Positions 27,601 through 64,000 of a stretch of 64,000 nucleotides of DNA are shown here, piece after piece (within the stretch, counting starts at the first letter, position 1; each line of letters starts with the position of its first letter). The DNA lies in NCBI RefSeq assembly GCF_018873765.1, contig NC_057923.1, forward strand, positions 1,240,001-1,304,000, read 5' to 3'. Source of the stretch: Telopea speciosissima (taxonomy: Eukaryota; Streptophyta; Magnoliopsida; Proteales; Proteaceae). Made by a program: the position numbers and the translations under genes. The notes beneath the pieces were generated by a model. That model was given only the letters and a program-made list of their open reading frames with translations, made no database searches and was not told where the DNA came from.

Positions 27601-30600
27601 TAAAATAGGATGGTTGAAGTGGAGAGGTGCAAGCGGCGTTCTGTGTGATCGGCGTATTCCTTTAAAACTGAAGGAAAATTTTTATAGGACTGCCATTCAA
27701 CCTGCCATGATGTATGGTGCGGAATGTTGGGCAGCAAAGAAGCGGCACGTTGATAAAATCAGTGTGGCGGAAATGAGGATGTTGAGATGGATATGTGGCA
27801 AGACTAGGAAAGATAAAGTTAGGAACAACCATATTAGAGCGTAGCAGGGAGTAGCCAAGGTTTAAAGTATCGGTATCGGGTATCATATCGGTCGGGCCAT
27901 TTTAAGAGACGTACCGTATCATATTGGATCGTATCGCAGATATGTATTGATCGGTGCAGATACACATGAAAATGATTAAAATACACATGGAAATATACTT
28001 TTGGACACAAAAAATTAATATAAACAAGCAATATATGTCATATATCATGCATATACACTAAGAATTGTAAATAATGTATAACCAGACAAGTGCGGCACTT
28101 TGTAATTGTTATAGGAGATGAGATTTCTTACATGTAGGTGATAGATCTGTACATAATGTATTACATATATTATACACATAAACATAGGTTCTTTTATGGA
28201 ATCCATTTTCGTTTTTGGGTGAAAAATGGTAGATTTGAGTTCAAATCTTTGCAAATGTATACAATGCATACATCTAATAGTTAGTTGAACCTATTCTCCT
28301 TGAATCATAGCAATTAAAAGAACTAAAATGCAAGATTTGAAGTAAAAGACAGTTTTTTGAAAAAAAATCTACCTTTCCCTTCAAAAACTCCTTCAATCTT
28401 CAATTTTTGGATGTTAGATGCTCCAAATGATGTAGTTCCACAACTATTTGAATCATTTTTCATTATGGAATGGAATCCCTAACAAGATTTGGGTGAAAAA
28501 AGGGCTTATAATCCAATTATTCTTGGTTTTCACCTTGGCTAGAACCTAGTTTTTCCACTGTAGGTACACTTTGGTTCGTGTTTTGTGTAAAATGTGATTT
28601 AAGTCAAGTGTATCAATATGTATCAGTACATATCGATACGTATCGAGACACTTAAAAACCAAAAAAAAGGGTAACTTTTAGTACGTATCGAGTCTATAGA
28701 TACGTATCGGTCGATACATATCGATACACCCGATATAATACATTTTTTGTAAAAAAAAAGAAAAAGAGACGTATCGGTATCGGTGGTATCGATACCGACC
28801 GATACCGATACGTATCGGCCAATACAATACTGACCGATACTTTAATCCATGGGAGTAGACCCTATTCATTGGGGACAGGTGCATGAACGACAACTCCAAT
28901 ATATTGAGCAATTACATTTGAAGATCATCGTATAATTTTGACCAACCCAAAAAGGCAAAAAGAAAATGGCTCAAATTTATCCTACAGATCTACATAGGTG
29001 GGACTATAGTTAATCCAAGGAAAAATATGGTGCAAGATGTGCTTGGGTATGATACACTAATTTTCTCAATTTACGTATATTATGACTTTTTAAGAAATAT
29101 ACTCCATCCGAAATTTGACTGCTTCATTTGGAGAAGAGAAAAAGAAACACACATTTTAAGGAGGCTTTTCCAAAAGCATTAAAGGCCACTATTGAAGGCT
29201 ACTACGACAACATTTTTTCCCAAATAATAGCCCCAATGCCTAGATCACCAAATGGTCAAACAGAAATACTGTTAGAGAAAGTGAACAGTTTCCATGCCAA
29301 GACGACCATAATGGACAAACATTTTGGGACAGTATAAATACATCAAGTAAGACAGCCATTTTTAGGACTGAGGGAGCATAAGATACGCATATAATTTTAT
29401 TTTTTTTTAAATCCATGTTTTAAATATTGAAATACATAATCAGGTATGTTTCGACATACTTAGGATTGAAGAAGGAAGAAAATTTTTCTTTCAAAAATAC
29501 GTGCATTTGGGTATCAAACTAAATATGTGTAAGACCCACTGAAAAGCAATGTTTTGCACACCCCCTTGGTGGTTAAATGTAAATGGGTATTATTTCAGTC
29601 TAACAGACAACCCTGATACCATGTTTCTATGCAATAAGTCTAAGCATTAACTTTTTTTTAATAGATAAATGGTTGAAACTTGAAAGTAATTACCTCTTCT
29701 CCCTTCTTGACAAGCCCGGTTCTTTTAATATTTAGGCGGACTGATGCATAAAACTTCAAAGCATTACCTCCTGAAGTAACTTCAGTTGGAACTCCAAATC
29801 CTCCAAAAGTGGCCAGCTTTGATCTCACCTGAAAACATGTGAGAAAAATTTTTGAATCATGAAATAGATCAATATTCAAAGCAGAGTTCCTCCAAGCTGG
29901 CTCCCCAGCTCTTGGAGGAACCTGCTCCCCTTAGTAACCAGCTAAGATGAATTGACCTCCCTAGAATTCAGATTCCTCGCACTGGCTTACTCAATCATTA
30001 TATTGCTGAATTGTTGGGACCCATCACAACATGTATTATATGAATATTTTGGATCAAACTATGAGAATTCCTTAGATCGGTACAAAGAATTTCTCTATGA
30101 AAGGTTAACCCAAAATTTTCAATTCAACTCTTCCGACGCTACAATAACCAGGCTTGTATGAGGTCAATTAGTAAATTCAAAAGCCATAATTTTCATATAA
30201 TTTTGCTGCCTTCTAACAAGTAACAATGATAAAAGGTTATGGACTGATGGTCATGCCAGATATGGTATTTCAGGAGATATATTATACAGCAGTTCAGTCT
30301 ATTCCAAAATCGAAGGTTATTAAGTTGTATAGTGTCTGGTTTTTTGTCATAATCCCTTTGCAATTCTTTCTTGGGGTTCTTTGATTCACCATTATCCACC
30401 AAAAGGGGAAGAGGATAAAAAGACTTTTTTATTGGGGGGGTGGTGTGTGTGTGTGCGTGTGTGTGTGTGTGTGTGTGTGGGGGGGGGGGAGGGGTCAGAC
30501 TTACTTGATTTATGAAGATCAAAATAGTCTGAGAGAGGGATAAAGAATGGCTCAATTTGCGAAGTGCCTGGCTCATCAGTCTTGCTTGCATTGCCATGTG

Positions 30601-33600: not shown

Positions 33601-36600
33601 ACTTAAGGGATTTTAAAAATCAATTAATCAGTCAGGGAGAAAAGATGCAACAGATTGGGCAAGCTATAAATCTTAGGATGGTAGTATTTGTATGACTTTA
33701 CACTCCCTCCAATAGATGGCAGGCAAATCAAATTGTCCAGATCAATTTGTAGGTACTGTGTACATGGAACAGATGCTAGACTTCTGCAATTTGCATCCTT
33801 ACTTACAATACCTATACCAACTTTTACGAGAATGCATTATTAAGCAACCTCAAAGATACTGATAAGAGATCCAGCACAAATAAATGAAGTACTTTGTCCT
33901 AGGTTGTATCATTAATCAGCTTAGAGCAGAAATTGTAACACTTTCTTTAAGCTATTTGCGCACCCAAAGAATCAACTTCTTTACAATCACTTTAAACCAG
34001 AAAAATCAGGCAGAATACTTGTTAACAGCCTAACAGTCACCTCCATGTTTCTGTGCTTCAGCAATTGCATGAAGAGCGAGAGTTGTTTTCCCAGAAGCCT
34101 CTGGGCCATATATCTCCACAACACGTCCCTGCAAAATGACAAAACTAACATGTAACTAGCAAACCAATACAGTAATAAACGCTGAAATGGTAAGAGGTAA
34201 AGATTATCCCATTAATTATTCTAACCCTACGTATTCAATATAAGATAGAAACAACTGCAGGTTTCAGGTTTGCTACTAGCCAGAGAAAATGATAAGTGTA
34301 AACATGGGAGGCAAAACTAGGAAATAGTACTTGCTTATGATCAACAACAAATGCTTGGTCATTTTATAACTACAAAATGTGAGAAAGGTTCTCTTTAAAA
34401 ATACTTAAAGATACGTTCATTCAAAATGGAGAGCATCCAACCTGATGACGAATGGAGATAATGAAAAATGTTATGATCGCTGAAAAAACTCACCACTGGG
34501 TAGCAACAGAACGCAATCCAGGTGACACAGACAGATTTACCTTTGGGAGTCCACCAATCCCCAATGCCATATCCAAAGCAAAAGATCCTGTAGAAACCAC
34601 GGGAACATGTCTAGGAGAAACAGAACGACCAAGCCACATGATAGCACCCTTTCCAAAGGCATTTGTTATCTGATCCAGAGCTTGACGTAGGGCCAGATCT
34701 TTCTTAGACATGTTCTCTTCACCTGAGTCACTTCCATCAGACTTAGACTTCCTTCCAACTGCAAATGGAGAAAAGATGCCACCTGCAATCAGCTCATAAC
34801 CCACAAGAAATTGTATTTCAGAAGTCAACCAGTCATACCGACCTGCAATCCTACAGTTTAGGAAGATGTTTATATCTTGCGTGGAGGTTTATTAGCTATA
34901 GATTAGTTTCTTATATAGGTTATTAGTAATTTAATTTTTTCTAGGATTCTTTGTTAACTAATTAGATTTAGATTGGGTTGCTTTGTAGTTGATTTTAATT
35001 AGGAAAAGTCTATAATGCTGTAATTGACTTTCAAACTTATAAATACAAGGATGTGGCTGGATTCTATAGCCAACAAATTAAAAAGAGAAAGAGAGAGAGA
35101 TAATTGGTTTTGAAACCATGTTATGCTGTGAGATGCAGTGGGAAGGGTGAGATACCTATACCTGTGAGGGGTGAGAGGCCCATGGGAGAGAGTGAGAGAC
35201 TCAATCCTATTTATCCATCTTCCTCTACCCTCTATATTCAATTTTTTTTTTTCCTATTGAATCCTGTAATGGCATTCTATTATGGAAACTACTGATCTAT
35301 ACCAATCAAAGGGAACCATCCTGCCAGAATTTCATCAGATTAGTGAAGGAATATTCTGCTGGAACTGCTGATCGATAGAATACTCAAAACAGAGTTTGCA
35401 ATTTGTTTCCTCAAGTTTTCTTGCTGAGATCCTGCCTGGGGTTAGGTCTTGTGACTTAGCCTTACATTAAAAACCTTTGATACTTTTGTGGATAATCTGA
35501 AGTCGAGATATGACATCTTAATCTTGCTTGCCTTCAGTACCCAAAAAAAAAAAAGATCTTGCGTGCCTTACAATGCAACGTACTTTAGCATGCTATATAT
35601 TTTACTATTTCTACCAATCAATATTATACAAATTGAAGTATGAGCAGTGATCCATAACCTAGTCTATATAATTAATTTTTCGAACAAGAATGGGAAACTT
35701 GTAGGATTTATTCCAACATTATTTTCTAGGTAACTATCTTAGTTGACCAATATCTAAAACTCAACAACTAAACTCAATAAATCAAGAACATCTACTATGG
35801 TACATGGATGGATTCCTTCAAAACAAAGTTATCAAACTAATAGGGCGTACCCAATGCACAAGGCTCCCGCCACTGCAGGGTCTGGGGAGGGTCATAATGT
35901 ACGCAACCTTTATTGAGTTTAGTTATCAAATTAATGTTTCGATCAATTATCCTTCCCAAAATGAATACCAAGAAATTATAGAAATCCAATAATATATGAG
36001 TTTTCTTCTTTTGCGCAATGAAAATAAGAAGACAAGTGAAAAGTCCCAGTCGTTGGGGAGGAGGATCCGGGATAGAACCTTCAAACCTTTAGAAGAAAAG
36101 TTGCAAATTTGGAAAGAGAGCCCCCAAATCCCTTGTCTGTTACCCTGCAAAGAAATTAAAGGTTAGGGGGGGAAAAGGAAGGCCATCTGTCATGAATGAT
36201 ATTCTTCACAAGCTACCAAATTGTAAGATTTCAACAATAACCCACCGTAATTAATAACCCTCGTCAACAAAATATGTGATAAAATGTAGTATTGACCAAG
36301 ATAAAATATACAATTCAGAAATTAAGCAGAAAAAACCAAGGGCGCATACTCTCATCCTGGGCTAAAGGGGCATTCGATGGTCTTCGAGATGGTATAGTTC
36401 CATTCCAGATTTGATTGTAGGGATCAATTGTATTGTCTTAGGAATTACAAGTGGACGGACCACGCCAGTCGTCTTAGTGTATGGTGTATAGCGGGTGCGT
36501 CCTAGTGTCTTCTTACTACGAGAAAGAAAGACGAAAATAGATGATTCTCGTTCTCAAAACTCAACTCTTTTTCTCTTTCAAACTAGGAGGATTGGCATTT

Positions 36601-47574: not shown

Positions 47575-50500
47575 ATGGCGCCTGCTATTGCTTCTGCTGG
47601 CTCGATATTTGCATCAGAATACGTGGCTAATTTTTCACGCTCTTTGGAACTTATCTCGTGTACTGGTGCGCTGCCATTTTTCACGGCCAAGTGCCTGTGC
47701 CAGAACGGGAAGAGACGATTATCTCTAACCACTAATGTTTATACAGAAGGTATTTCAGAATCGCGAGCTGCGCAAGCAACGAAGTGGAAAGAAAAGCTCG
47801 AACCCGAGCCGGACGCCTTATCTATTCTGAATGAGAGGATTCGTCGTGATATCGGAAACAGAGATTCTTCGAGAACTGTCATGGATTCGCAGGAAGCGGA
47901 GAAATATATTCAATTAGTGAAGGAGCAACAGCAGAGGGGACTGAAGAAATTGAAGGGGGATGGAGAAGGGAACCCAGAGGGGTTTAGTTACAAGGTCGAT
48001 CCTTACACACTTCGTCCGGGAGATTATGTTGTTCACAAGAAAGTGGGAGTTGGACGATTTGTTGGTATTAAGTATGATGTTTCCAAGGATTCCACGGAGC
48101 CCATTGAGTATGTCTTTATAGACTATGCGGATGGAATGGCGAAGCTTCCTGTTAAGCAAGCATCACGTCTCCTATATCGATATAATCTGTAGGTGTATCC
48201 ATCCTATTCTTTTGGAATTCTACATTTTCTGTTCGTAGTTTTTTCAATTCCCTCTGCAATTAAGGTTAATGTCGAGTCCCTGTTGTCAGTAGATTATTTT
48301 TAATAGTGTAAAATACATTTGCGCAATTCACGACTTTCACTAGTTTATTAGAATGGAAATGATTGTCGTTCATGAATTATAGAGGTTATTGCGAAGGAGT
48401 GAGAGATTGACTTGTTAGAAAATCTTTGAATTTTGTGAAACTCCAATCCATCTCCATACAGTAAACTATAACATGATTGAATAAAAAGAACAGGAAACAA
48501 TATGTACCTTGCACCCGTGTATGTTGGAGAAGAATAACCCCCTTTTGTGTCGCCATCCCTCGCCTTGAAACCTTGATTAGGATCTTCTCCAGTCTCCTTG
48601 CCTCACACACCCCTCACATTCTTGGTGGGAAGAACAGAGAATGAGATCAAGTGACTGTAGGGACCCTAACCATGTATTTATAATAAATACAAACCCTAAT
48701 CCAATCCACCCACAATGGAAAAGACTAGTATATCCCCATTAACCTTAAAGTAGTCCCAAACCGGGTTTTAAGCCCATGGACCCACACTAATAGCTAGGGT
48801 ATAATTAATTAAGCCTAATATGATATTGGAAATATCTTACATGACTGAGCAAAAATGTTTATGGATTTTCTAGACTGATTTTCAGGATACAAGCAATACA
48901 CAAGAAAAAGATGCAGAAGGATACATGTTTTCTGGCAGTTTTAGAGCTTTATGTGGCGCTGTAGAACTAAGAACTAGTCAGATATGAAGATGAATCAAGT
49001 CCTAGTTGTCGCCATATGAACCAGAGGAGGGTGTAAGTTGATAGGGTCATATCATAGAATCTTCATAGGATTGGTGCTATGGCTTATCTAAAATTCCGTA
49101 TGGTGTTAAGATATTTGCTTGGATAGGTTTCCGTTGTACATCATTGTTCTAGCCTCCTTGACCCTCGATTTGAAAATCAATTGAACTCTGAAATTGGACA
49201 CCAGTTGAGCCCAAACTGGGGCTAAAGTTGCACTTCAAATTGGGTTTTTCACCGGGACCATTGTTTTAACATCAGGCCTGTAGCTGGATAGCGTATATAC
49301 TAAATGTCCTTACTATTCTAGGACCAAGTGAAGATCTGTGGCATGTCTTGGTCTAGAAGATTAGAGAGAGCTATATTTAGTTGTTGCTGAATCAGTTTTT
49401 GAATCTAAAAGTGAATAATGCAGTTTCCTTTTTCTGATTTTGATTTGGCATCTCGAAGAAGAATGCCTACCTGGAAGTTATTCTCATCCTGGGGACCACA
49501 AAGGTGTTAGGGGGTTCTTCATCTGTGCCTGGGCAGCTGAGTTGTTTGGTCTACATGGTTGATGACCTTTTTTTTCTTCTTCAGGTAACTATAGATTTGA
49601 CAGAAGTTATGGCCTTGGATAGTGTAAAATGGTGGAATAGGATCTATATAGCTGACTCCTAATGGTCAGTCAAGGGTTTGTCAGGTTGAGTTTAAACGTG
49701 TAGGTGTTGTCTTGACTCTTTATATACTTTTAATATACGTGCCTAATTCCTACTCATTTATTTGACATTGATATGTATGCACATAAAAAGTTCTGTTTTC
49801 ACATGGCTTAACTACCTTGTCATATTTCTTCTTCTTTCCAGTCCAAATGAAACAAAAAAGCCAAGGACATTGAGCAAATTAAGTGATACCAGCGCCTGGG
49901 AGAGGAGAAGGATAAAAGGGAAGATTGCCATCCAGAAAATGGTTGTTGACTTGATGGAGCTATATTTACATAGACTGAAACAAAAGAGGACGCCATACCC
50001 AAAGAGTACTGGCATGGCTGATTTTGTTGCTCAATTTCCTTATGAGCCCACTCCTGATCAGAAACAGGTAAAAGTTTATCCCCTTTTACTGAAAGCATCT
50101 CTAGGTTCTGTTGGTTGTTTCTTTCTCGTTAGATTCAACACACTTTATTTTTGTACTGCTTGTGGTTGTACCATACATTTACATTGATATCCTCAGAAAT
50201 CCTGATCTTGAGATGATGTGCACAAATGTAGTCCCATACCATCTTAGGTAATACGAACTGGAGTTTGAATGTTGTATTTTCTACTTGATTTTTATAGGTT
50301 CTTTCAACTCTTAATTATGTTACAATAGTGAATTTAGCTCAAAGTTTTCTCTTTTCAATTACTGTATCTTCACCTCCTTGTTACAGTGGTGCAATGTTAT
50401 TTCAGGCTTTCATTGATGTTGAAAAGGATTTGACTGAGAGGGGAACTCCAATGGACAGACTGATATGTGGAGATGTTGGCTTTGGTAAAACAGAAGTTGC

Positions 50501-53500
50501 CCTACGTGCCATTTTTTGTGTTGTCTCAACAGGGAAGCAAGCTATGGTTCTAGCTCCAACTATTGTTTTAGCGAAACAACATTTTGATGTCATTTCTGAG
50601 CGCTTTTTCAGGTGTCCTTACATCAAGGTTGGACTCTTGAGCAGGTTTCAGGTATGAAAGGCTTTCTTCCTACTACACTAACCAAAATTTTCATGGATAT
50701 TGCTTGAATCTCAGTTAATCTGTGAAAAAAAAATGGTGTATTTCCTCAATTCCTCTTCATGGTGAACTATGCGTAAGATATATACCTGGAAACATGTAAA
50801 GTTTTCTTGTTGAAAGCCCCGAAAGTTGTTTTTTTTTTTTTTTTTTGGATGAATAAAAATTTAATTACGAAGAAAAAGAGGAAAAATACAAGCCCAAGGG
50901 CAGGGGGCTAGTTAGGACGCAAAATGGATGTAGTGAGGCCCCAGGAGACAACAATGAGCCGGAAAGTTGCTTAATTCAATGTGAATATTGAGAATCGAAC
51001 CTGTATAATCTACTCCCGTTGACTCTTGGTTTGTTCTTTAGGATCATTTAAAAAAAAAAAAAATCAATCTGAATTGCTGCTATTTTTCTTATCCAAAGCC
51101 CCACCCCAAGGTCCTAGTTATTTGGGCTCCATCATTGAAAATTACTTCCAACTTAAACTATTGATTTGTACAAAAATTTCCTTAATAAGGTTTCAGAGAA
51201 CACCGTATTAGATGTCGACTGAGGGCAACCAACCTTTGGCAGCACAAAATACCTTAGGTAGAGCATGCATTGTGCACTTTAAGCACTAGAAATATTGATC
51301 TCACAAAAATGTGATCAGTCTAACCTGATGGCCTTGGAGGTTTTTCTGGTAGACCATAAATGTTCTCGCTTCTTGATGTGACCTAGGCGATACAGGAATC
51401 TTTAGTGGCAGCTCAGTTGACAGCCCAGATGGGCTCTGCATATCACATATCCTTACGTGGTAGCTGTCCGTCCTGATTCCTGAAGCACTACATCATGTGG
51501 AAAAGTGAATCCTTCATTTCTTAACATTTTGGATTAAATTTTGAAATTTCAATTTCTAGTATTAGTGGCCATGCCCATGGACAGAGCAGCTAAACACATG
51601 GCCAATCTGGAGGGTCCCCTTCCAGTGGATGTTTTTGATCAGCCACATTGTCTCTTCTCATAGCTAAAATAGGAGGGTTAACCTAGTGAAGAGATCTAGG
51701 TGACACATTGAACAATAAAAGTAGATTGGAAATATCAAAACCAGTATATACATTTGATGGTGAAGCACATTCGGCAAAATTGGCTGCCATGATGATTTTG
51801 AAATTTGGCAGCCCAAAAATCCATGTGTTTCTTCACATATCCTCATGGCACAGAGATTCATTTTCCCAAGCCTTGCATAATATAGTATATTATTGGAAGC
51901 AACCTCTCTGCAAAGCGGGGGTTAAGGCTGCGTACATTATGACCCTCCCTAGATCCCGCAACGGTGGGAGCCTTGTGCACTGGATACGCCCAGTGTTTAA
52001 AGTGTCGGTGCGTATCATACCGTATTGGCCGATACGTCTCGATATCAGTCGGTGTCGATACGGTACATACCGATACGTATCTATTTAAAAAAAAAAATAA
52101 TGTATCGACTGTATCGATATGTATCAACCGATATATGTCGATACGTATTGATACAGCTGATACGTACTATTTTCAATTTTGTATTATTTTTTTAAATGTA
52201 TCGGTATGTATCGGTCGATACATATTGATACGTATCGATACACATGCATTTTTTCATATTTTACACCAAACACGAATCAAAACACCTCAAATTTTTTTCG
52301 GGGGCATCCCTCCGTGTCACGAACTAAATCTCAACTTGTTCTCCCTTCGGGTCGTGCCATAAAATATGTCGGGTCGGGTCGGATCCACATCGCACTCGAA
52401 TCCTTGGAATACAAGACATACTCAACACTTGAAAGGGAAAAGGTAAGTTTTTTTCAAAAAACTTGATCTTTTGCTTCAAATCTTGCATCTTAGTTTTTTT
52501 TTTTTTTTTTTGCTCTGATTCAAGGAGAATAGGTTCAACTAACTATTAGATGCATGTTTTGTATACATTTGCAAAGATTTGAACTCAAATCCACCATTTT
52601 TCACCCAAAATTGAAAATGGCTTCCTTAAGGGTCAGTATTGTGTTTAAGTTCGGTCAGTACACAACATCATTGTTACAGTTTGGCTTATTTGACCCGAAT
52701 CCTAACCCGAGTCCGATTGTAGGCCCGGAACCCGAAGTTGTAGCCCCGTGTACCCTGTGGAACGTGGATTGGGTGTTTGAGCGAGTAGACACGGAAGATG
52801 GAATTCTTGCATCAATACGTCACCTGCCGATAAAACGACGCATACCTCCCCCGTGCTATTGTAAAGTTCACAAACAAATGTACAATTTTGGGTAAGCGAC
52901 TTTAACCATATTTTTAGGTGTAGGGCATGAAAACATTGTTATAAATGTATTTGTACGCGAAACCACCAAACTCGGGGCGTTTCGACACTTGGACAGCACA
53001 TAAAACACCTTTGGAGGATCTTTTGGTCAACCACACATATCAACCAGAGTATTGTTACTGCAGATTCCTATCTCGGGAGTGTGGGACCTGGTAGCTCGAG
53101 TCGGGGATTTTGCTGCCGCGTCCCATTTAGCTTCTGGGAGTGTCTCTCCAACAACGTTGGTATGTGGGACTCGTTTAACTAACCCTCGTACACAAAAAGG
53201 GTAAATATTTCATTTTTAATTAATAGAGATAAGGTTTCAGAGACCGACTAATACAATTTATATAAAATGAAACATCTCCACTATTCACCTCTCTTTGAAA
53301 TTGAACGAAAGAAACCAAGTGAAATTGAAAGAAGAAGAAGAGAAGAAGAAGACCGAGGACTGATATTCGGTTTTGGTAAAAGGTTTATCCCCCATCACAT
53401 CTCTTCCATGAATTCTTCTTTAATTTCATTCCTTACCCTGATTCCTGAGCTAGGTTCATCCCTAATTTGGGGAAACCTAAGCCCCAGTCTCATGGATATG

Positions 53501-56500
53501 GGTTTACTTAGATGGCTGTTAAATTCAGTCAAGTTATTCCCATTTATGCTAGACTTTATTAGGAAGTTTTCATTTAGGTCATTGATTGACTGTGCTACCA
53601 TCAAATAGCACCTTGCTGAGTCTAATCCATGCTGTATAAGTTAGTTTCCAATTGGTGAAGTTCATGTAAAAATAACTCTGAATATTTCTTGTATATCTGA
53701 ACCATGGTCATTATCTTAACCCCAATTCCCCAAATTGCCCACCTCCCTAGCCTATTTTGAGTCACAAGAACTCAATCTTATATGTAGAAATCATCCCTGA
53801 TGTGAATTGGGGAAAGCCAACCCAAAACCTCCATTAAAACTCAGTTTTTCTTTTTATTTTTCGTTTATGGTTGTCTCTGGTGGAAGCTACTGGTCAACCA
53901 GAGACATAGACCAGAGTTACTGAAAGGTGTTTCTTAACTCTAAATCTATTCCGAATCGACCCTAACTTATCTTGGGATTTCAGTATCATTAGAATATCAT
54001 CTAGTATGCATATTTAGTTGATAACTTTTAGAAACCTAACTCTCGAGTCAATTTTCTGTTTGCTGTTTGTCTCTGGTGGAAGTCACTGGTAAACCAGAGA
54101 CACAGACCAGTGTTGCTGTCAGGTGTTCTCTTAGCTCCAGACCTGTTTTATATTAACCTAACATATATTGAAACTCCAGAAACATTAGGATACCGCCTAA
54201 CATATATGTTTGGTTTATAAATATTAGGACCTAACTCTTGGATCATTGAACTTACCGGCAAACGACTCATGAACTAACCCGGCAGTGCAAAATCAACTAA
54301 AGCAAGGTGAGTGGGGATAGGCCTTGATTTTATTTTGGAGTGTTTAGCGTTTTAAATTAATTATTAGGGATGTGCATATGTGTGAAATTATCCTTGTTAG
54401 AACCTGTCTTATTAATTATTTCATTCATAGCTTGTGATTATGAAATTGTGGAATTTTGATGAAATCGTGAAATATGTTTAAAGGTGTAAATTGTATGTTA
54501 GAATAGATGCCGTAGACGGCTTGGAAACGAGAGGTATGGTGCGTCGTAGTATGGGATGTGGGAGCACTGTACACCTCGTCCTATGCCATTTAGACTGCAC
54601 ATGGTTAGGGACGGCATTCCTTGGTACTACAACCCTTACCAGCAGGGGTCCAGGTGCTGGGTGATCATAGCTCCCTGTCGCTGAGGAGTGTGTGGAACGC
54701 CGGGGTGGGGTCCAGGCTATGATTATCGGAGTCTACCTACGGGGGGATCTCGGGATTACGACCGGTGTGGGCTCCATGCAACAATTGAGGTTACGGCTTG
54801 GGTTGAGTTGACGGACCCAAGTCTGTTTTCCCGAGTTGTTGGTGTAGTACCTACTTAGGGACTTAGGCATTGATTGTTAGGTGAAATTAGGTTTAAAATC
54901 AATCCATGCATTTAGGATTTTTGTTTTGTATGTGCGAATGCTTGTGTGTGGTCTTTCCTTTACTTGCTGGGCTCGGTGGAGCTCACCCCTGTGGAATGTT
55001 TTTCTTTTTAGATGATCCTGCAGATAGATGTGATGGCAGCGTGGAGGATTATTTCGAGGTGGAGGCTGATGGTTATAGTGATCATGTTGGTTTGGACTCA
55101 GAGGGGTGTGATCCCTCTGACATAGACGATCACGGTTTCCCTGGAGAGTAGGGATTGATGACGAGGAGCTTGTTTATCTTTTGATGTATATAGTCTTTTT
55201 GGTGGACGTGGTCCACTGTATATATTGTATAGTTTGGTAGTTTTCTGGCCCATAGTCCGAAATCTCGCGAGATCTCGTCGAGATTCTCGGTTTTTTGTAA
55301 TACCGAGTCGAGATGGCATCCGAAACTGAAAAGTGCAATATCTCGGCGAGATCTCGGATCTCGGTTGGATCTCGGTTTCGAACCATTATTTTAACCCACC
55401 TACTACTTAAATACCTTACCTAATTGGACAAAACTCGACATATCTCGGATCCAGATCTCGGGTTGACCCAAAGTTCAAGCTTCAAGTTGAAAAAAAAAAA
55501 AATGAACCAACTTGGCGAGATCTCGACTCGTCTCGGTTTTTCTAAGAGTCGAGTTGGTCCCGAGACCCGAGTTTTAGTACCTTGTTCTGGCCCGACGGAT
55601 GGGCATCGAACCTTCTGGTAGTTTGGGTGTTTTGTGACAATGTAAATAACTTGTAAATTATCTGGTAAACACTTACATTTCGTGCACTTTGATTCGAGAC
55701 ATGTTCTTTGCTTTATCATTGTGTTTAGCTTGTGACTTGTAAATACAGCTTTGTAATCCTAGAGGTCCTCGAATACATCGGGTATTCGGGTTAACCCACG
55801 AATCCTCCTAGGGGGTGGTGTCGGGGTGTGACAATAATGTAGTCGTAGATAGGTAGGAGACCTATTAGGAGCCAAACAACCGGATCAAATAACAAAAGGG
55901 GCTGCTGGTTCGAATGGACAACACTAGGATTTAGGTCAATTCCTAGGGTTTGGGTTGGATATTGGGAAAGGGGTTTATAGGGTATTAATGGGCAGGTCTA
56001 GGGGGTCAATATGGTATAAAAAGGTTAGGGTTTGGATGAGTTTTGAAGTTCTGCAATTCTGGACAGAATTGAGTTGCAGGTTTTGGGCTTTAATGGAGTT
56101 AGGGTTTATGGGATTCAAACAAAAAATAAAGGGGATCAATTGGGGGAAAGGATTAGAGGATTAGAAGAAGAATTTTGGCATCAAACTTACTGGAGATTCC
56201 ACTGGCAGCAAGCTTCGACAGTTGTAAAGGATAAAGCCACCTTCGAATTTGAAGAAGATCCTCCCAGCCGTCACGGCGTAAGGAATCAACAGGATTCCAC
56301 CAGTCCCTTTCCACCTTGATAGAACCACAAGGATGCACACTCACAAGGAGCACAGGAGCAGCAACAATGGCAGCCAACAAGCAAAAGCTTTTTTCATTAA
56401 TCAAATTCGTGTACAATGTTGGCCTCCCTTACAAACTTATATAGAAGACTCAAAAATAGACTTAGACACTAAAAAGGAATGGCCTAATCCTATCCCTAAC

Positions 56501-59500
56501 CTATTAGGTAATTTAAATTGGCTAGGAAACTAAAATATTAAAGGAAATAGACTCAAAACATGGCTGGATTTATAGAGTCCTAATCCAGTCCAACTTACAT
56601 CACATGACCACTTAAGTTGTCACATGACCACTTAACCAAGTCACATGATCACTTAAATTGAACCAATTGGTTGCAACCAATTTGAACCGGTTCAATTAGA
56701 AAACATAAAAATAAACTAAGTATTGGGCTAATCCCGTATGCAACCTATGTACCTCTAGTTTAGGCTCATTAAAGTGGCCTAATACATAGAAAACCCTTGG
56801 GAACAAATGCCCAACATGTATATAACCCAACCCTAGGCCTATTTCTAAAGAAATAAGCCAATATCTATGATGAACCTGCATCAACTGTCCCCAACTTGAA
56901 AAAATTTGTCCTCAAATTTTGCAGTGATGAGGGGGAATCAACATGTGATCAGCAACTTTGACCATCCCCAAACAAAATTCGATGAGGCGGGAACATTGGG
57001 GATAAAGTCTTCAATGCATGGAGCTTTCTCTTGAAGAACCATGGTGGCATAACAAACTCTATGTGTTCGCCTGTGAATCAGAAAGAATGTCAATGTCTCG
57101 TCCATAGAGCCTTCAGTGTTAGCAACCTTCTCATCTAATGCATGAGACACAAGCTCTACCTCTTCAAGAGCAGCATATCAATAAGCTTTTCATCTTCTAC
57201 TGGTTCAGCCTTATCTATATTGGTTTCTTCAACATAGATCACTTCAGTAGGATCTTCTGTTGGTGCATCTGCCATTGGTGAAACTTCAAACACAGTCGAT
57301 GCCACTTGCGTTTGAGTTGACATGTTCGGCAGTCCCTGTGGCTGTACAGTCGATGTGGTCACCTTTGGTTGTAACCCTTTTAGAGTAAATAAATGGTATA
57401 GACGGTGTCGATCAGGTAGGACACATGAGTTGTTTTCAGGTTCAATCCAACCTTGTCGCTCGTCCAACCAATCACCACCTATTGCAATAAAACTCTTTGA
57501 ATGTGGTACCGGCTGACACCAAGCATCATCATGGTATAAAGAACACCCAAATTCAACACAGACTTTACCTGTAGGCATGATGCAAATCTCTCCTGATTGG
57601 GACAACATATCCACCACGGATTGTAAAATAATGTTGTTACGTTGCCTCTCATCAACAATTAATATGGTTGTGCTCCCATTGGGTAGACAAACTCGGGTCT
57701 TAAAAACGAATGGAGGTGGGTCTTTCGAGGCTTGGTTGGAGCTTCCCTCCGCCATAGCTTTGATACCAATTAATGTAGTCCTAGATAGGTAGGAGACCTA
57801 CTAGGAGCCAAACAACCGGATCAAATAACAAAAGGGGCTGCTGGTTCGAATGGACAGCACTAGGATTTAGGTCAATTCCTAGGGTTTGGGTTGGATATTG
57901 GGAAAGGGGTTTATAGGTTATTAATGGGCAGGTCTAGGGGGTCAATATGGTATAAAAAGGTTAGGGTTTGGATGAGTTTTGAAATTCTGCAATTCTGGAC
58001 AGAATTGAGTTGCAGGTTTTGGGCTTTAATGGAGTTAGGGTTTGTGGGATTCAAACAAAAAATAAAGGGGGTTAATTAGGGGAAAGGACTAGAGGATTAG
58101 AAGAAGAATTTTGGCGTCAAACTTACTGGAGATTCCACTAGCAGCAAGCTTCGATAGTTGTGAAGGATAAAGCCACCTTCGAATTTGAAGAAGATCCTCC
58201 CAACCGTCACGGCATAAGGAGTCAACTGGATTCCACCAGTCCCTTTCCACCTTGATAGAACCACAAGGATGCACACTCACAAGGAGCACAGGAGCAGCAA
58301 CAATGGCAGCCAACAAGCAAAAGCTTTTTTCATTAATCAAATTCGTGTACAATGCTGGCTTCCCTTACAAACTTATATAGAAGACTCAAAAATAGACTTA
58401 GACACTAAAAAGGAATGGCCTAATCCTATCCCTAACCTATTAGGTAATTTAAATTGACTAGGAAACTAAAATGCTAAAGGAAATAGACTCAAAACATGGC
58501 TGGACTTATAGAGTCTTAATCCAGCCCAACTTACATCACATGACCACTTAACCAAGTCACATGATTACTTAAATTGAACCAATTGGATGCAACCAATTTG
58601 AACCGGTTCAATTAGAAAACATAAAAATAAACTAAGTATTGGGCTAATCCCGTAAGCAACCTATGTACCCCTAGTTTAGGCTCATTAAAGTGGCCTAATA
58701 CATAGAAAACCCTTGGGAACAAAGGCCCAACATGTATATAACCCAACCCTAGGCCTATTTCTAAAGAAATAAGCCAATATCATGATGAACCTGCATCAGA
58801 CAATCATCCTAGTTGCTTTTATTCTTGAAGACCCTTACAGTCATGAGTTTGATCCGCCCCGATATTCTTCATGGCAATAGAGTGACTTTGCATGTAAGAA
58901 ATCTCATCTTTTATAACAATTTAGAAGTGCCGCAATTGTCTGGCTATACATTATTCACAATTCATAGGATATATGCATGATATATGACGTATATTGCTTG
59001 TTTATATTGTTTTTTGTGTCAAAAAATGTATTTCCATATATATTTTGATCATTTTCATGCGTTACTGCACCGATCAATACGTATCTCCGATACGATACGT
59101 CTCTTAAAATCGCCCAAACGATACGATACCCGATACCGATACTTTAAACCTTGGATACACCCCTTTTTTATAATATGGTGTTTTATGCTTCAAAACTATG
59201 TTTTATTTGTATCATAAGCACATCTTTGCATTTCTTGATCATTTTCATGCGTATCTTGCTTCTCTCTGTTACGATACGATGTCTCTTAAAATCACGGCTC
59301 TGATACGATACTTGATACTGATACTTAAATCATTAGGTATATTATATATGGGAAAAAGAACTTCGTCCAGGAGTGAGTCTATCTCTCTCCTCCCCAAATG
59401 AAGACACCTCTGCCCCCCTGTTTTGAGGAAGAGATAGACACATGGGAGTGCTAGCATAGGCCACATTCTGTCACACCCCGCTCCCAAAAGCACTGGGAAT

Positions 59501-62500
59501 GCGACTAGGATGCTTACCATCATCCTACACAACCTGCCAGGATCTCTGACATAGTATCTTAAGGCCACAGTCACACTTAAGAGAATAATAATAATTAAAG
59601 ATGGCGGAAGACTAAAATATAATAATTCTTATTCTCATAATTGGGGAAACTAAATGTGATAAATATTAAATATTTCAGATTTATTCGTAACCCGACAGTT
59701 ATCCACAATGTAAATAATAATAATAATTACATCAAGTAGTATACACCTATCAGAAAACAAAATGGAGGACACCACATCCTCGATTACAATATATCATAAG
59801 CACAACCAACATAAGCACCACCGACTTCATGCACACCGGGTTCTGGGGTCTACCAGTCTCTAGCACAATTCGTCACGGGGCAGTTGCATCTCTGCTTATC
59901 GACACCGCACAACCTGCATCAACATCTAAAAAGAGGTTTCCACGAGGGATGAGCTCCATTGAGCCTAATGAGCAGAATTGGAACACATAAGCATACACAC
60001 ATAATCTCTGATGCACAACAATAGTGATGCATGTATAAGTTCAATTATTCTAGCTAGCATGCCTAACTATATGATAATTTGTATACATACATATATACAT
60101 GCGGCCGAGATCACGGTACTGGCATTGCCCTCGGCCACACCGTCCTCCCGTATCTTCAAGCATGTTAGTATATATACGAAATGCACGCGTACATATATGT
60201 CAAAAGCTGAGATCATAGTACCGGAATCACCATCAGTCACACCATCCTCCTGTCTCCTCTAATATACATATACCTGTGCAACGAGTATGGCGAATACAAT
60301 ATCGGAATTACCATCGGCCTCACCGCAACCCATTTCCAAGCCTAATGCATCATATATTTCTAGTACAACAGTTAAGGAAAGTAAATATAGTTAGTATGAC
60401 GAATACAGGATGGACCACGTCCACATTACAACCCATTTCCAAGCTTAGATCTAATGCAATATGGATGTGAAATAAATATGAGTATCGGGATCATACATGG
60501 GCCACGCGTACTTATTCCGGGCAAACCAATTTGATGTACAGACATCCAGGGCATCCCATACTACTACGAATGATCAGAGATCCGACTGGTTCAAGCGAAG
60601 ACAAACCAAACGTGATAAATGAATCCCTAGTATCCCATACCACTAGGATGACTCGTACATCAAGTCCGGTTCACAATCACACACCATGCATGATTCCTCA
60701 ATGCAACATGACAGTAATTAGTAAGGCGATCACGGTACCGAAACCACCTCGGCCTCACCGGATCCCATTTTCACACAACACAATATTCTATCAATTTGCA
60801 GTTTTAAAGCATATGTAGTGAAGGTTACGCACGCATCCAGTTTAAGAATGAAATGCGCCAAGCAAATTCTCATAGCTAAGGCGATCACGGGCCCGACATT
60901 CCCCTTGGCTCCCAGATCCCATTTCCACATAACGCACACATCCATCATAGTATACGTAATTTAAAACATACTTAGTGAGTTTTAAGTATACAATAGCTAG
61001 GCAAGCATCGAGTGCAACATACAATTATACAAGCTTCAAAACACTCCTTAAAACAAAGTTAATCCAACCCACTCACCTAATCAAGTGATTAGGTGATTCA
61101 ATCCCAAAATCAAAGCTTGATAGAATCCCCGATACGCCTCACCGTTCCACTTGTCTTTGACCTAATTAGGTGTACATTAAGTTAGACTAAGTGTTGAGGG
61201 ACGCCCGAAAAATTCCCAAAAAGATAGAGTCAAATTCAACTCTGGGAACTAGGCGGTAGAAGTAGGCGGTTGATCCATTGATTAGCCGATATGATCAACT
61301 GGTACTTGAAGCAGAAGCTTCAGATCCCAAAATTTACCAACTGGCTGGTCTGGACTTCTACCGGTAGCCTGTCTGAGAATGGGTTTTCCAGTTAGGCTTC
61401 GTTCAACGTCGCGCCGGGACCATTTCTGTTCCATAGAGATTGTAGGGGATTGGTCCACCTACGATTTAAGCCTATTGGCATCGGGTTTCACCAGTTGAAA
61501 CCGGAGGTACTATCAAATCTCCGATCGAAACCCTAAAGTTAGGTTTTGGCCATTTTTGCCCAAACCTCGATGGAACTGACTTCTAACGGGGATTGAGAGT
61601 GTGCAAGGGGATCATGTGTCCTCATTCAACCACACTCAAGTTGGCTTCCAAGCACAACACTGAGTCCCAAGTGAAGCCTGGCTAAAAACCCTAGTTCTAG
61701 GTATAGAACAATAGGAATGGAAAGAGGAACAAAGAGTAGATTCTCCTACCTGAGATGGAGCAGAGACAACAAACACCGCGGGTCCGAGCCTCCTCTTCCT
61801 CCTCCCTTCTTCTTCTTGTTCTTCCTTTCCCTTTCTTCTTTCTTCTCTCCCTCCCACGACTGGTGTTTTGATGAGAAATGAGTTCTTAAACTCACAACTC
61901 CTTATTTATACCCTTAGGCCGGTAGGGCCCGTTTGCCTGTGTGACTTTAATCAGTCAAGTTGATTATTTTCCCAATTGGACCACTTGGGCCCACCACCTT
62001 GACTCCACATTGGATGTGTAGTCGTACGAGGATAGCACAACATGATGGGACATGAGGGAGAGGGTTTATTACGGGCCATGGGGCTCCCACAGCCAGTAGT
62101 CCGATTCTGGACAGCAAGACCAACCGGCAGATCTGGATCAGCTTGTGGTGATTGGCCGGTTGGCCAATTCCAGCCCTGTTCCAGCTGAAATCCAGCAGTG
62201 CTTTCCCCCACTCTCAAGGGTACTTGTGGGGGGGGGGTTGTGCAAGGTTTCAAGTCAATGCACTACCATGTATTCAAAGGTATAATTGACAAGAATGGTT
62301 ACCTTTGATTGGATACCCAGCGGCGGATTCGGATTTCCATCTTCACAGGCTTGGAGGATACCGATAGTCACCCATATACCACGATCCAAGTATCTCTTCG
62401 ATACCTTGACAACAATCCTACGTGGATACTCAACATTTGCAGCCTACACACTGATAGAACTGAGAGTTGCTGGAGTAGTACCTACGAATAAATTCAAATT

Positions 62501-64000
62501 AGACATGTTTTGGGCACGGATGTAACACATTCCCGGACAGAAAACTACTTCCCATTATATATATAATTCCTAAATTGACTCATAAAAGGATTCCTAATCA
62601 CTCTCTTATATTGACTTAAAATAAATAAAGTCAAAATAGAACTTTGTCTTGCTATTAAGTATCCTAATCTAATTCAACACTAAACTTAACTACTAATTTT
62701 GTGTACTAAGTACTAACTTTATCCCCACTTTATGGGCTTATAAATTAGGCTCATTACAATGAAACACAGAAAAATAAATGGCACAACCTATAATATAACT
62801 ACCCAAAGGTCAATTTCAGCTCAGTGACTGCCACTGGCACCTTATGGGCCTCCCAAGCTTGGATATAGGCCTCCATACAGGATTAATACCTAATGCAATT
62901 GCATAACTTTACTAATCCCTAGGGTACTTTAGGAAGATGGTGTAGATCTGCCAGGTCAGTCCACCTTGTAGAAACAAACATGTTAAAACCCTATTTATAC
63001 TTATATATTGATGGTGATGGTGATGAAGTAGTTGGATGCCTTTAGTTGCTATTTCTTGGATAAGTTTTAGTGAGGCTGATGTGGGAGCCCCTTGAGGCTG
63101 CTAAAATGTGCTCGCACAAAGGTCCATGATAAATTCTGTTTTAGGTCTTTGTTTCCCCCCCTTTCTTTCCTGGTATTGAATTTTTTATTCATCCCAAAAA
63201 AAAAAAAAAACTGTAATATAGTGGGCCAAATTCTTTAGTGGCTTTCTTTTATTTGGGTTTTGGCTTTATTAGTAGGGGTTTTATTTGTAATGTGCTGGGT
63301 TTATTTTGTTATGAGTCTTTTATTTGTAACTAGGCAACTAGTGAAGGCCATGAGTCTCTAGTAGTTACTTGGGCAAGCAGTTCGAAGATCTGCTCAGTAG
63401 GGGGTATTTTAGGTCTTCGGTTTTTAAGTTGGGTTGGGTAAGGGCAGACCTTGGTGTAACGGTAAGTTTCTCCCCAGGCTTGAGTTGGGAAACTGCCTCT
63501 TGCACTGGGTACGCCTTTTTTTTAAAAAAAATTTAAGTTATGAAGATTATAAAAAGAAACATGCAGGTTTTCTTCCTCTTGGCTGTGCACAAGTTCTCCT
63601 GCTGTTAGTTTGCTGCTGCTATTACTTCTGTGCTGCTAATTGTTGCTAATTTCTTATATTATTTAATTCTATTTCTTCTACCTGTTGGCAAAGTTACTGT
63701 TTAGGGTACAATTCACAGACCCAGGATAGCACCTGTCCCGGATCTTTCCCAAATTTCTCTTATTCCGTTAAACACTAACCTGATATAAGCCTATTTTTCT
63801 TCTATGATTTCCTAGCAGTTCAGCGCCTCAACTGTAGATATTTGAAAATCTAGTCTGTTCTATATCAGATACTGCTTAAATATTCCTATATTGTTATTCT
63901 GAAGCTGTTACAATATGCAGACCAAGGCATTGAAAGAAGAATATCTTTCAATGATTAAACATGGGCATTTGGACATCATTGTTGGAACTCACGCGCTTCT
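47575..64000 (+). CDS. Plant Mfd/TRCF-like helicase, 5' part (runs off window)
   Basis: Exons are 47575-48188, 49842-50067, 50406-50651 and 63921-64000 (continuing). Phases agree: exon 1 ends with two bases of a Leu codon, and exons 3 and 4 start in phase 0. Mfd-type helicases push stalled RNA polymerase and couple transcription to repair; the plant form lacks the bacterial N-terminal UvrB-like part, and Arabidopsis At3g02060, annotated as plastid, is the likely counterpart. Visible features are a Ser-rich transit-peptide-like N-terminus and a charged helix about 75-130. A CarD/RNA-polymerase-interaction domain starts at [19 protein letters not shown] (146-164). Then come FPYEPTPDQ, Walker A GDVGFGKT (302-309), [12 protein letters not shown] and, in exon 4, [17 protein letters not shown]. 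Intron 3 is 13.3 kb because of nested transposons. No break is seen in the coding part present. Confidence 0.92.
48189..49841 (+). other. TRCF-like intron 1
   Basis: A 1,653-bp intron with GT-AG ends. No bounded transposon, RNA gene or supported ORF was recognised. It is AT-rich unique-looking sequence. Confidence 0.5.
50829..50961 (-). mobile_element. Tiny LINE 3' end in TRCF-like intron 3
   Basis: A T-run of about 20 (the A-tail on the minus strand) followed by GGATGAATAAAAATTTAATTAC, typical of an L1 3' end. It is flanked by GAAAGTTG (50821-50828, 50962-50969). It is about 130 bp, severely 5'-truncated and non-coding. Confidence 0.7.
52672..55833 (+). mobile_element. Long solo LTR 1
   Basis: Begins TGTTACAG and ends GGGGTGTGACA. 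It is preceded by ATCAT (52667-52671), and the matching ATCAT is found at 58803-58807, displaced by a later insertion at its right edge. Without the MITE inside it is about 2.8 kb. It contains a GCTGGGCTCGGTGGAGCTCACCCC stretch near 54968-54990, as seen in long plant gypsy-type LTRs, but no pol. It is inside hAT-like element D. The gypsy assignment is by style. Confidence 0.78.
55251..55584. mobile_element. hAT-like MITE E (GAGATCTCG family)
   Basis: A 334-bp element starting CATAGTCCGAAATCTCG and ending CGAGTTTTAGTACCTTG, imperfect inverted ends. It is flanked by the exact 8-bp duplication TTCTGGCC (55243-55250, 55585-55592). It is dense in CGAGATCTCG motifs and inserted in solo LTR 1. Confidence 0.87.
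55835..56883 (-). repeat. 3' LTR of the short LTR element
   Basis: A 1,049-bp direct repeat, nearly identical to 57771-58798. It begins TAATGTAGTC and ends CTGCATCA on the plus strand. Confidence 0.92.
57156..57755 (-). CDS. 199-codon ORF of the short LTR element, unknown
   Basis: An uninterrupted ORF starting almost inside the primer-binding site (the ATG follows TGGTATCAAAGCT) and filling most of the 887-bp interior. The product is acidic overall, with an N-terminal half containing [16 protein letters not shown] and [14 protein letters not shown] segments and a Thr/Glu-rich C-terminal half. No CCHC knuckle, protease, integrase or reverse transcriptase motif is visible. It could be a diverged gag or an unrelated acquired sequence. 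I do not recognise the family. The open frame in a recent element suggests it may be maintained. Confidence 0.6.
   Translation of the reverse strand: MAEGSSNQASKDPPPFVFKTRVCLPNGSTTILIVDERQRNNIILQSVVDMLSQSGEICIMPTGKVCVEFGCSLYHDDAWCQPVPHSKSFIAIGGDWLDERQGWIEPENNSCVLPDRHRLYHLFTLKGLQPKVTTSTVQPQGLPNMSTQTQVASTVFEVSPMADAPTEDPTEVIYVEETNIDKAEPVEDEKLIDMLLLKR
57771..58798 (-). repeat. 5' LTR of the short LTR element
   Basis: A 1,028-bp LTR with the primer-binding site just to its left. It lacks about 20 bp of a short tandem (CACATGACCACTTAA) that is present in the partner, which explains the length difference. Confidence 0.92.
59469..62527 (-). mobile_element. Long solo LTR 2
   Basis: A 3,059-bp block starting TGTCACACCCC and ending TGTAACA on the plus strand, flanked by the exact duplication CATTC (59464-59468, 62528-62532). 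Read on the minus strand it begins TGTTACA and ends GGGGTGTGACA, the same termini as solo LTR 1, so it is a related LTR in the opposite orientation. It contains a GAGCTCATCCCTCG stretch (minus strand) matching the layout of LTR 1. It has no pol. Confidence 0.82.
60100..60940. repeat. Degenerate internal repeats of solo LTR 2
   Basis: Several diverged copies of a unit containing GCGATCACGGTACCG...CTCGGCCTCACCG..TCCCATTT, near 60100, 60208, 60288, 60724 and 60880. Spacing is irregular. Such internal repeats are common in long LTRs. Confidence 0.6.
62533..63920 (+). other. Distal part of TRCF-like intron 3
   Basis: Intron sequence after the last solo LTR. A probable L1 3' end lies near 63000-63205 (TGGTATTGAATTTTTTATTCATCC followed by about 15 A). 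The acceptor is at 63919-63920, with exon 4 starting at 63921. No other gene was recognised. Confidence 0.5.

Follow-up and report, generated by a model that had tools for sequence, protein, structure and literature searches.

We analysed a stretch of 64,000 nucleotides from Telopea speciosissima (contig NC_057923.1, positions 1,240,001 to 1,304,000; hereafter the window) in which intron 3 of a TRCF/Mfd-like gene carries transposable elements inserted into one another. A hAT-like DNA transposon, termed D, is split by the solo long terminal repeat (LTR) of a Ty3/gypsy retrotransposon; this LTR carries a hAT-like miniature inverted-repeat transposable element (MITE) and, at its right edge, a non-autonomous LTR element of ~3 kb, and D itself lies in the 3' end of a short interspersed nuclear element (SINE). 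For D, LTR, MITE and short element both identity and nesting are shown, as is the position of the SINE under D, and independent successive transpositions into one long intron almost certainly explain the stack. A reading of the window that used the sequence only had proposed D, the long LTR, the MITE and the short LTR element; the coordinates it gave for all four hold to the base, and all four target duplications were found where it had placed them. This sequence-only reading was incomplete in overlooking the SINE and an older remnant of the D family, E. The core of the stack comprises the following features:

50652-63920, + strand: intron 3 of the TRCF/Mfd-like gene, enclosing the entire stack
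51983-51990, + strand: left target duplication of D (GATACGCC)
51991-52671, + strand: left part of hAT-like element D, one ATCAT included; 84-87% identical to six uninterrupted genome copies
52667-52671, + strand: left target duplication of the long LTR (ATCAT)
52672-55833, + strand: solo LTR of a Ty3/gypsy element; 3,162 bp, or 2,820 bp minus the MITE and the extra duplication
55243-55250, + strand: left target duplication of the MITE (TTCTGGCC)
55251-55584, + strand: hAT-like MITE, 334 bp, with inverted ends
55585-55592, + strand: right target duplication of the MITE (TTCTGGCC)
55830-55834, + strand: left target duplication of the ~3-kb element (GACAA), covering the final 4 bases of the LTR and the opening base of ATCAT
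55835-58798, - strand: non-autonomous LTR element, 2,964 bp; LTRs 55835-56883 and 57771-58798, internal region 56884-57770
58799-58803, + strand: right target duplication of the ~3-kb element (GACAA)
58803-58807, + strand: right target duplication of the long LTR (ATCAT)
58808-59153, + strand: right part of hAT-like element D
59154-59161, + strand: right target duplication of D (GATACACC, one mismatch), running on into the SINE 3' end

Element D and the SINE beneath it

D spans 51991-59153, between GATACGCC and GATACACC, and its terminal inverted repeats reach a score of 20, which was matched by none of 300 shuffled sequences. Non-autonomous elements of hAT type are characterized by an 8-bp target duplication and by short imperfect inverted ends beginning with CA. 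D, which is ~1 kb long and has both terminal inverted repeats and an 8-bp duplication, is hAT-like on these grounds, and D and the MITE resemble hAT-type non-autonomous DNA transposons and MITEs in these features, whereas the ends of the D family are distinguished by their richness in GATACG-type subterminal repeats.

Searching the genome (822.9 Mb in 1287 contigs) with the left part of D gave 824 first-look candidates, the best 40 of which were scored, and seven loci other than that of the window were inspected. Among these, six (L003, L004, L005, L007, L008 and L009) align without interruption across the LTR target at 84-87% identity, with the target site in single copy, reading ATCAT in five and ATTAT in L007. 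Tests of six D copies for their own 8-bp duplications, L004 being left out as its right end was not reached, revealed 8/8 matching bases in four and 7/8 in one. The sequence-only reading had instead relied on element C (27856-28851) as the uninterrupted relative joining the two halves of D. Alignment with C supported the outer parts of D (68% identity on the left, 84% on the right), but the junction itself did not align, 42+83 bp in D standing opposite 59 bp in C. C was dropped as the decisive reference, being too distant at the junction, and L003-L009 provide the better test. C has an 8-bp duplication of its own with one mismatch (GGAGTAGC at 27848-27855, GGAGTAGA at 28852-28859).

The sequence bordering D belongs to two further elements:

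51885-51892, + strand: GTATATTA, tentative left target duplication of E; identical 8-mer at 59337-59344
51893-51990, + strand: left part of the 5'-truncated SINE-like copy into which D inserted; the 3' end of this copy resumes at 59154-59169
59170-59336, + strand: right end of the older D-family element E; 59163-59334 is 65% identical to C (176 aligned columns)
59337-59344, + strand: GTATATTA, tentative right target duplication of E, directly after E's end

The segment 51893-51982 resumes beyond D at 59162-59169. Two other SINE copies run without D through the same point, one at 35844-35910 (- strand; 87% over 67 bp), sitting between 10-bp TTTGATAACT repeats, and one in L011 (84.5%), which has an RNA polymerase III B box (GGTTCGAGTCC) and yielded no A box with the pattern tried; D therefore landed in the SINE 3' end. 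The B box, the several copies and the flanking duplications of one of them identify the family as a tRNA-type SINE. The tRNA-type B box GGTTCGAGTCC of the L011 copy and the T-rich 3' end are shared with plant SINEs of the putative Au type, and the copy under D differs in being 5'-truncated. Another SINE-like copy (L019, 1075-1145) starts directly at the outer end of a relative of the long LTR.

E is 68-78% identical to parts of six D copies. The GTATATTA pair, which was noticed post hoc, may be a real duplication of E; the motif has five copies in the 64-kb window, and 75 of 24,122 random AT-rich 8-mers find a match within 3 bases of that position. In a rival reading, the duplication made by the SINE itself is the 7-bp ATAATAT found at 51877 and again at 59170. 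GTATATTA flanks the SINE together with the E remnant, as if E had lost its left end as far as the target duplication, and one might speculate that a one-sided hAT excision halting at the SINE removed this end.

The solo LTR, its insertions and the order of events

The edges of the long LTR were tested in a scan for TG..CA ends accompanied by an exact 5-bp duplication. It covered 52630-52720 on the left and, on the right, 55700-55834 and 58804-58891 joined into one, and 52672/55833 was the sole qualifying pair. Shuffled sequences gave some pair in 152/2000 cases, and in 2/2000 when matching inverted ends were demanded too. As ends and duplication alone are thus found in shuffles, and as no second copy of the block was found in the window, 52672-55833 might be an unrelated insertion with TG..CA ends by chance. 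We assign a negligible probability to such a chance insertion, against which stands a genome-wide family with the same start and end, paired LTRs, primer-binding site (PBS), polypurine tract (PPT) and gypsy coding domains. The search for this family returned 2834 candidates, of which the best 40 were scored and 29 loci besides the window's own were examined. Two same-strand LTR pairs carry matching 5-bp duplications (ATTGA/ATTGA on contig C9, CGCAA/CGCAA on contig C2), all six left LTR edges shown begin with TGTTAC, and 17 of the 23 right edges shown end in TGACA. A PBS-like TGGTATCA(A/G)AGC, similar to that of initiator tRNA-Met, follows 7 of these 23 LTR ends, and PPT-like sequence precedes 4 of the 6 LTR starts. 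Between the C9 LTRs a 3-kb interior piece (L042) encodes gag, protease and partial reverse transcriptase in that order (PF03732, PF08284, PF00078), and this order in a relative with paired LTRs assigns the family to Ty3/gypsy. A non-LTR nature of the block is ruled out by the paired-LTR family and its gypsy coding domains. The relatives are like Ty3/gypsy retrotransposons in general in their gag-protease-reverse transcriptase order and TG..CA LTR ends, whereas the window's copy consists of the LTR alone. This lone LTR is flanked on both sides by ATCAT, which is single in the D relatives. The family with paired LTRs and the uninterrupted D copies thus bear out the solo LTR inside D, and we infer that it arose by recombination inside a gypsy element.

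The presence of a hAT-like MITE in this LTR was likewise corroborated, by an exact duplication, inverted ends and MITE-free relatives. The 8-bp TTCTGGCC duplication is weak evidence by itself, as 46/300 shuffles yield an 8-bp repeat with CA..TG ends, and the inverted-end score was reached by 0/300. No match to the MITE was detected on either strand of the 29 LTR loci; nine of them span the MITE site, four closely (88-93%), and of these four L013 and L014 have TTCTGGCC. One partial match to the MITE (89 bp at 76%) was seen, in L010.

At the right edge of the LTR the right-hand copies of GACAA and ATCAT have one base in common, and the ~3-kb insertion therefore spans the LTR's outer edge. This agrees with the proposal of a short LTR element with a GACAA duplication at that place, and other copies of its family share the same ends. 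Six other elements of this kind were checked at their ends, and four of them have exact 5-bp duplications; the right end of one of the six lay outside the stretch fetched.

Several observations weigh against the nested reading. The duplication of D is 7/8 identical, with one mismatch, and the seventh D locus, L006, is not continuous, as it carries an insert of its own, of ~650 bp, at the same spot as the window's LTR; its ends show no duplication of 6/8 or better. The score of the inverted ends of C alone was met in 2/300 shuffles. Of the close loci spanning the MITE site, L028 and L035 are one base short there, and by position the four probably represent two elements only (the C9 and C11 pairs). 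In the ~3-kb family L063 lacks a duplication, L075 has 4/5 bases, and the L059/L060 element is off by one base. The insert in L006 (about 2183-2828, minus-strand orientation) is T-rich at one end and lies between AAGATCATCC and AACATCATCC; the insertion spot ATCAT that it shares with the window's D possibly reflects a preferred target or chance.

The high copy numbers of D, the long LTR and the short element (824, 2834 and 914/6196 first-look candidates, the last two figures for internal region and LTR) also raise the question whether repeats were misjoined and the stack is an assembly artefact. This is very improbable in our view, as there are four junction pairs with matching target duplications, which misjoins do not produce, and the exons of the gene stand in order on either side. 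Exon 3 ends at 50651, where the match to E. coli Mfd also ends and GT comes next; exon 4 starts at 63921, preceded by AG, with the Mfd match beginning at residue 687. Intron 3 is accordingly ~13.3 kb long. Upstream, CarD/TRCF and DEAD domains are encoded in the open stretches 47575-48189 and 50298-50654, E. coli Mfd is matched by 49891-50070 and 50451-50651 and weakly by 48010-48183 (E 0.11), and additional exons lie downstream of exon 4, past the window end.

Under successive transposition, a tRNA-type SINE would first have come to lie beside or inside the old hAT-type remnant E. D would then have inserted into the SINE 3' end with an 8-bp duplication, followed by a full-length Ty3/gypsy retrotransposon inserting into D (ATCAT). 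LTR-LTR recombination would have removed one LTR and the interior, leaving the solo LTR, and a hAT-like MITE (TTCTGGCC) and, across the right LTR edge, the ~3-kb non-autonomous LTR element (GACAA) would have inserted into this sequence. The order SINE, D, gypsy element, ~3-kb element is forced by the nesting. The gypsy element also preceded the MITE unless the two arrived together, which is unlikely because the MITE is absent from the 29 relatives. The sequence-only reading had D followed by the parent of the LTR, which stands, and placed the MITE and the short element after the recombination; this does not follow, because an LTR-LTR crossover can keep both. It is quite conceivable, at somewhat under an even chance, that the MITE and/or the ~3-kb element entered the full-length gypsy element and that the solo LTR formed later, keeping them. 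A crossover retains the content to its right in the 3' LTR and whatever straddles the outer edge, and the ~3-kb element does not count as very recent (Kimura two-parameter distance, K2P, between its LTRs 0.031); on the other side, and not directly, the lack of a MITE match in the LTR relatives suggests late entry, but only within the history of the family.

The ~3-kb family and its reading frame

On the minus strand the ~3-kb element reads LTR, PBS (TGGTATCAAAGC), reading frame, PPT-like stretch and LTR, and its LTRs begin with TG and end with TA on the coding strand. Across 1028 aligned sites the two LTRs show 31 differences, and the resulting K2P translates into 1.2 million years at a rate of 1.3e-8 substitutions per site and year, 2.2 million at 7e-9, 3.1 million at 5e-9 and 10 million at 1.5e-9. 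Genome-wide, the internal region gave 914 candidates and the LTR 6196, the best 40 of each being scored. Full-length matches among the best 40 internal candidates were mostly 91-93% identical and near 921 bp long, with four at 86-87%. Some 16 listed LTRs had no internal match among these 40, and nine of them were checked: six stand alone as solo LTRs between exact duplications (GGTTA, CTTAA, AGGCT, GAAGG, GAAGG and AGGGG), and of the other three one has 4/5 bases, one has no duplication and one runs into an internal region. A gag-pol partner of the element was not seen at the edges examined, to which the search was confined.

The internal region holds a long open reading frame:

57156-57755, - strand: 199-codon reading frame, shorter than in other copies

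Its length exceeds that in all 500 shuffles (maximum 164 codons). Of eight other copies, each 921 bp long, four (L045, L046, L048 and L050) keep the frame open over 302 codons, up to where the fetched sequence ends; two keep it open for 294 and 292 codons and one for 236, and one lacks its start. These copies form two subfamilies ~11% apart, and the frame is open in both.

Scanning the long frame, and this frame only, against Pfam gave nothing above the cut-off, the best hit, DUF740 (E 0.0058), lying below it. The 199-codon frame had no homologues among 5.8 billion proteins and no match among PDB sequences. The sole protein match, to an uncharacterized protein of Macadamia integrifolia, covered 53% of the query at 47% (E 2.4e-37), and a profile search with the frame returned only this protein, which was itself part of the profile. 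It matches the window's element with 62% over 60 residues (56804-56983, - strand, E 8e-24), of which ~27 fall in the LTR. As this match crosses the border between internal region and LTR, the protein has most likely been annotated within a copy of this LTR family in Macadamia. AlphaFold models of the frame reached a mean predicted local distance difference test score (pLDDT) of only 34.6 and 30.3, too low for a fold search to be of use.

There is no clear purifying selection on the frame, as the ratio of non-synonymous to synonymous variation (pN/pS) is 0.67 within and 0.81 between subfamilies, and the majority codons of the two differ by 14 synonymous and 44 non-synonymous changes. In drift simulations the frame stayed open in 122/4000 runs with 94 random substitutions, the distance between L046 and L048, and in 647/4000 runs with 47. 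The simulations argue weakly against pure drift, L046 and L048 having been picked for being open. We consider it possible, though rather unlikely, that the family, shared with Macadamia, keeps its own predicted non-gag, non-pol protein of at least 302 codons, which may aid mobilisation by the machinery of another element or escape from silencing.

Among known elements the closest comparison is with terminal-repeat retrotransposons in miniature (TRIMs), which are alike in retaining PBS and PPT, in their 5-bp duplication and in being non-autonomous (PMC4717578). The element likewise has LTRs, PBS and PPT and lacks gag and pol, as judged by the Pfam scan of the long frame. It is set apart by its ~3 kb, its ~1-kb LTRs and its long reading frame: that source gives a TRIM subfamily average of 685 bp and describes TRIMs as being without coding capacity (PMC4717578), whereas the window's element has 2,964 bp and four of the eight copies a 302-codon frame. 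By size and coding frame the family is outside the TRIM description. No description of it was found among the titles and abstract openings returned by literature searches that were mostly aimed at other topics, which is weak evidence of novelty.

Significance of the stack and of the ~3-kb family

Nested LTR retrotransposons and solo LTRs are well described in plants (PMC6911290; PMC7251063). The stack in the TRCF/Mfd-like gene is alike in its solo LTR and in the insertion of later elements inside earlier ones, and differs in mixing classes, namely SINE, hAT, gypsy LTR, MITE and non-autonomous LTR element, within one intron. The insertion of the ~3-kb element at an LTR edge hits an uncommon kind of target; it is somewhat unusual because LTRs, together with the integrase domain, are the least frequent nesting targets according to PMC6911290, and as a single case it proves nothing. 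For teaching, the stack offers a well-resolved case of mixed classes, with nesting open to base-by-base comparison with uninterrupted copies; what it adds scientifically is modest, such nesting being routine in plants. The ~3-kb family may matter more than the stack, as a very successful LTR family with a reading frame that matches no gag or pol family. If its predicted protein acts, non-autonomous LTR elements would gain a self-encoded helper that is neither a known capsid nor a polymerase.

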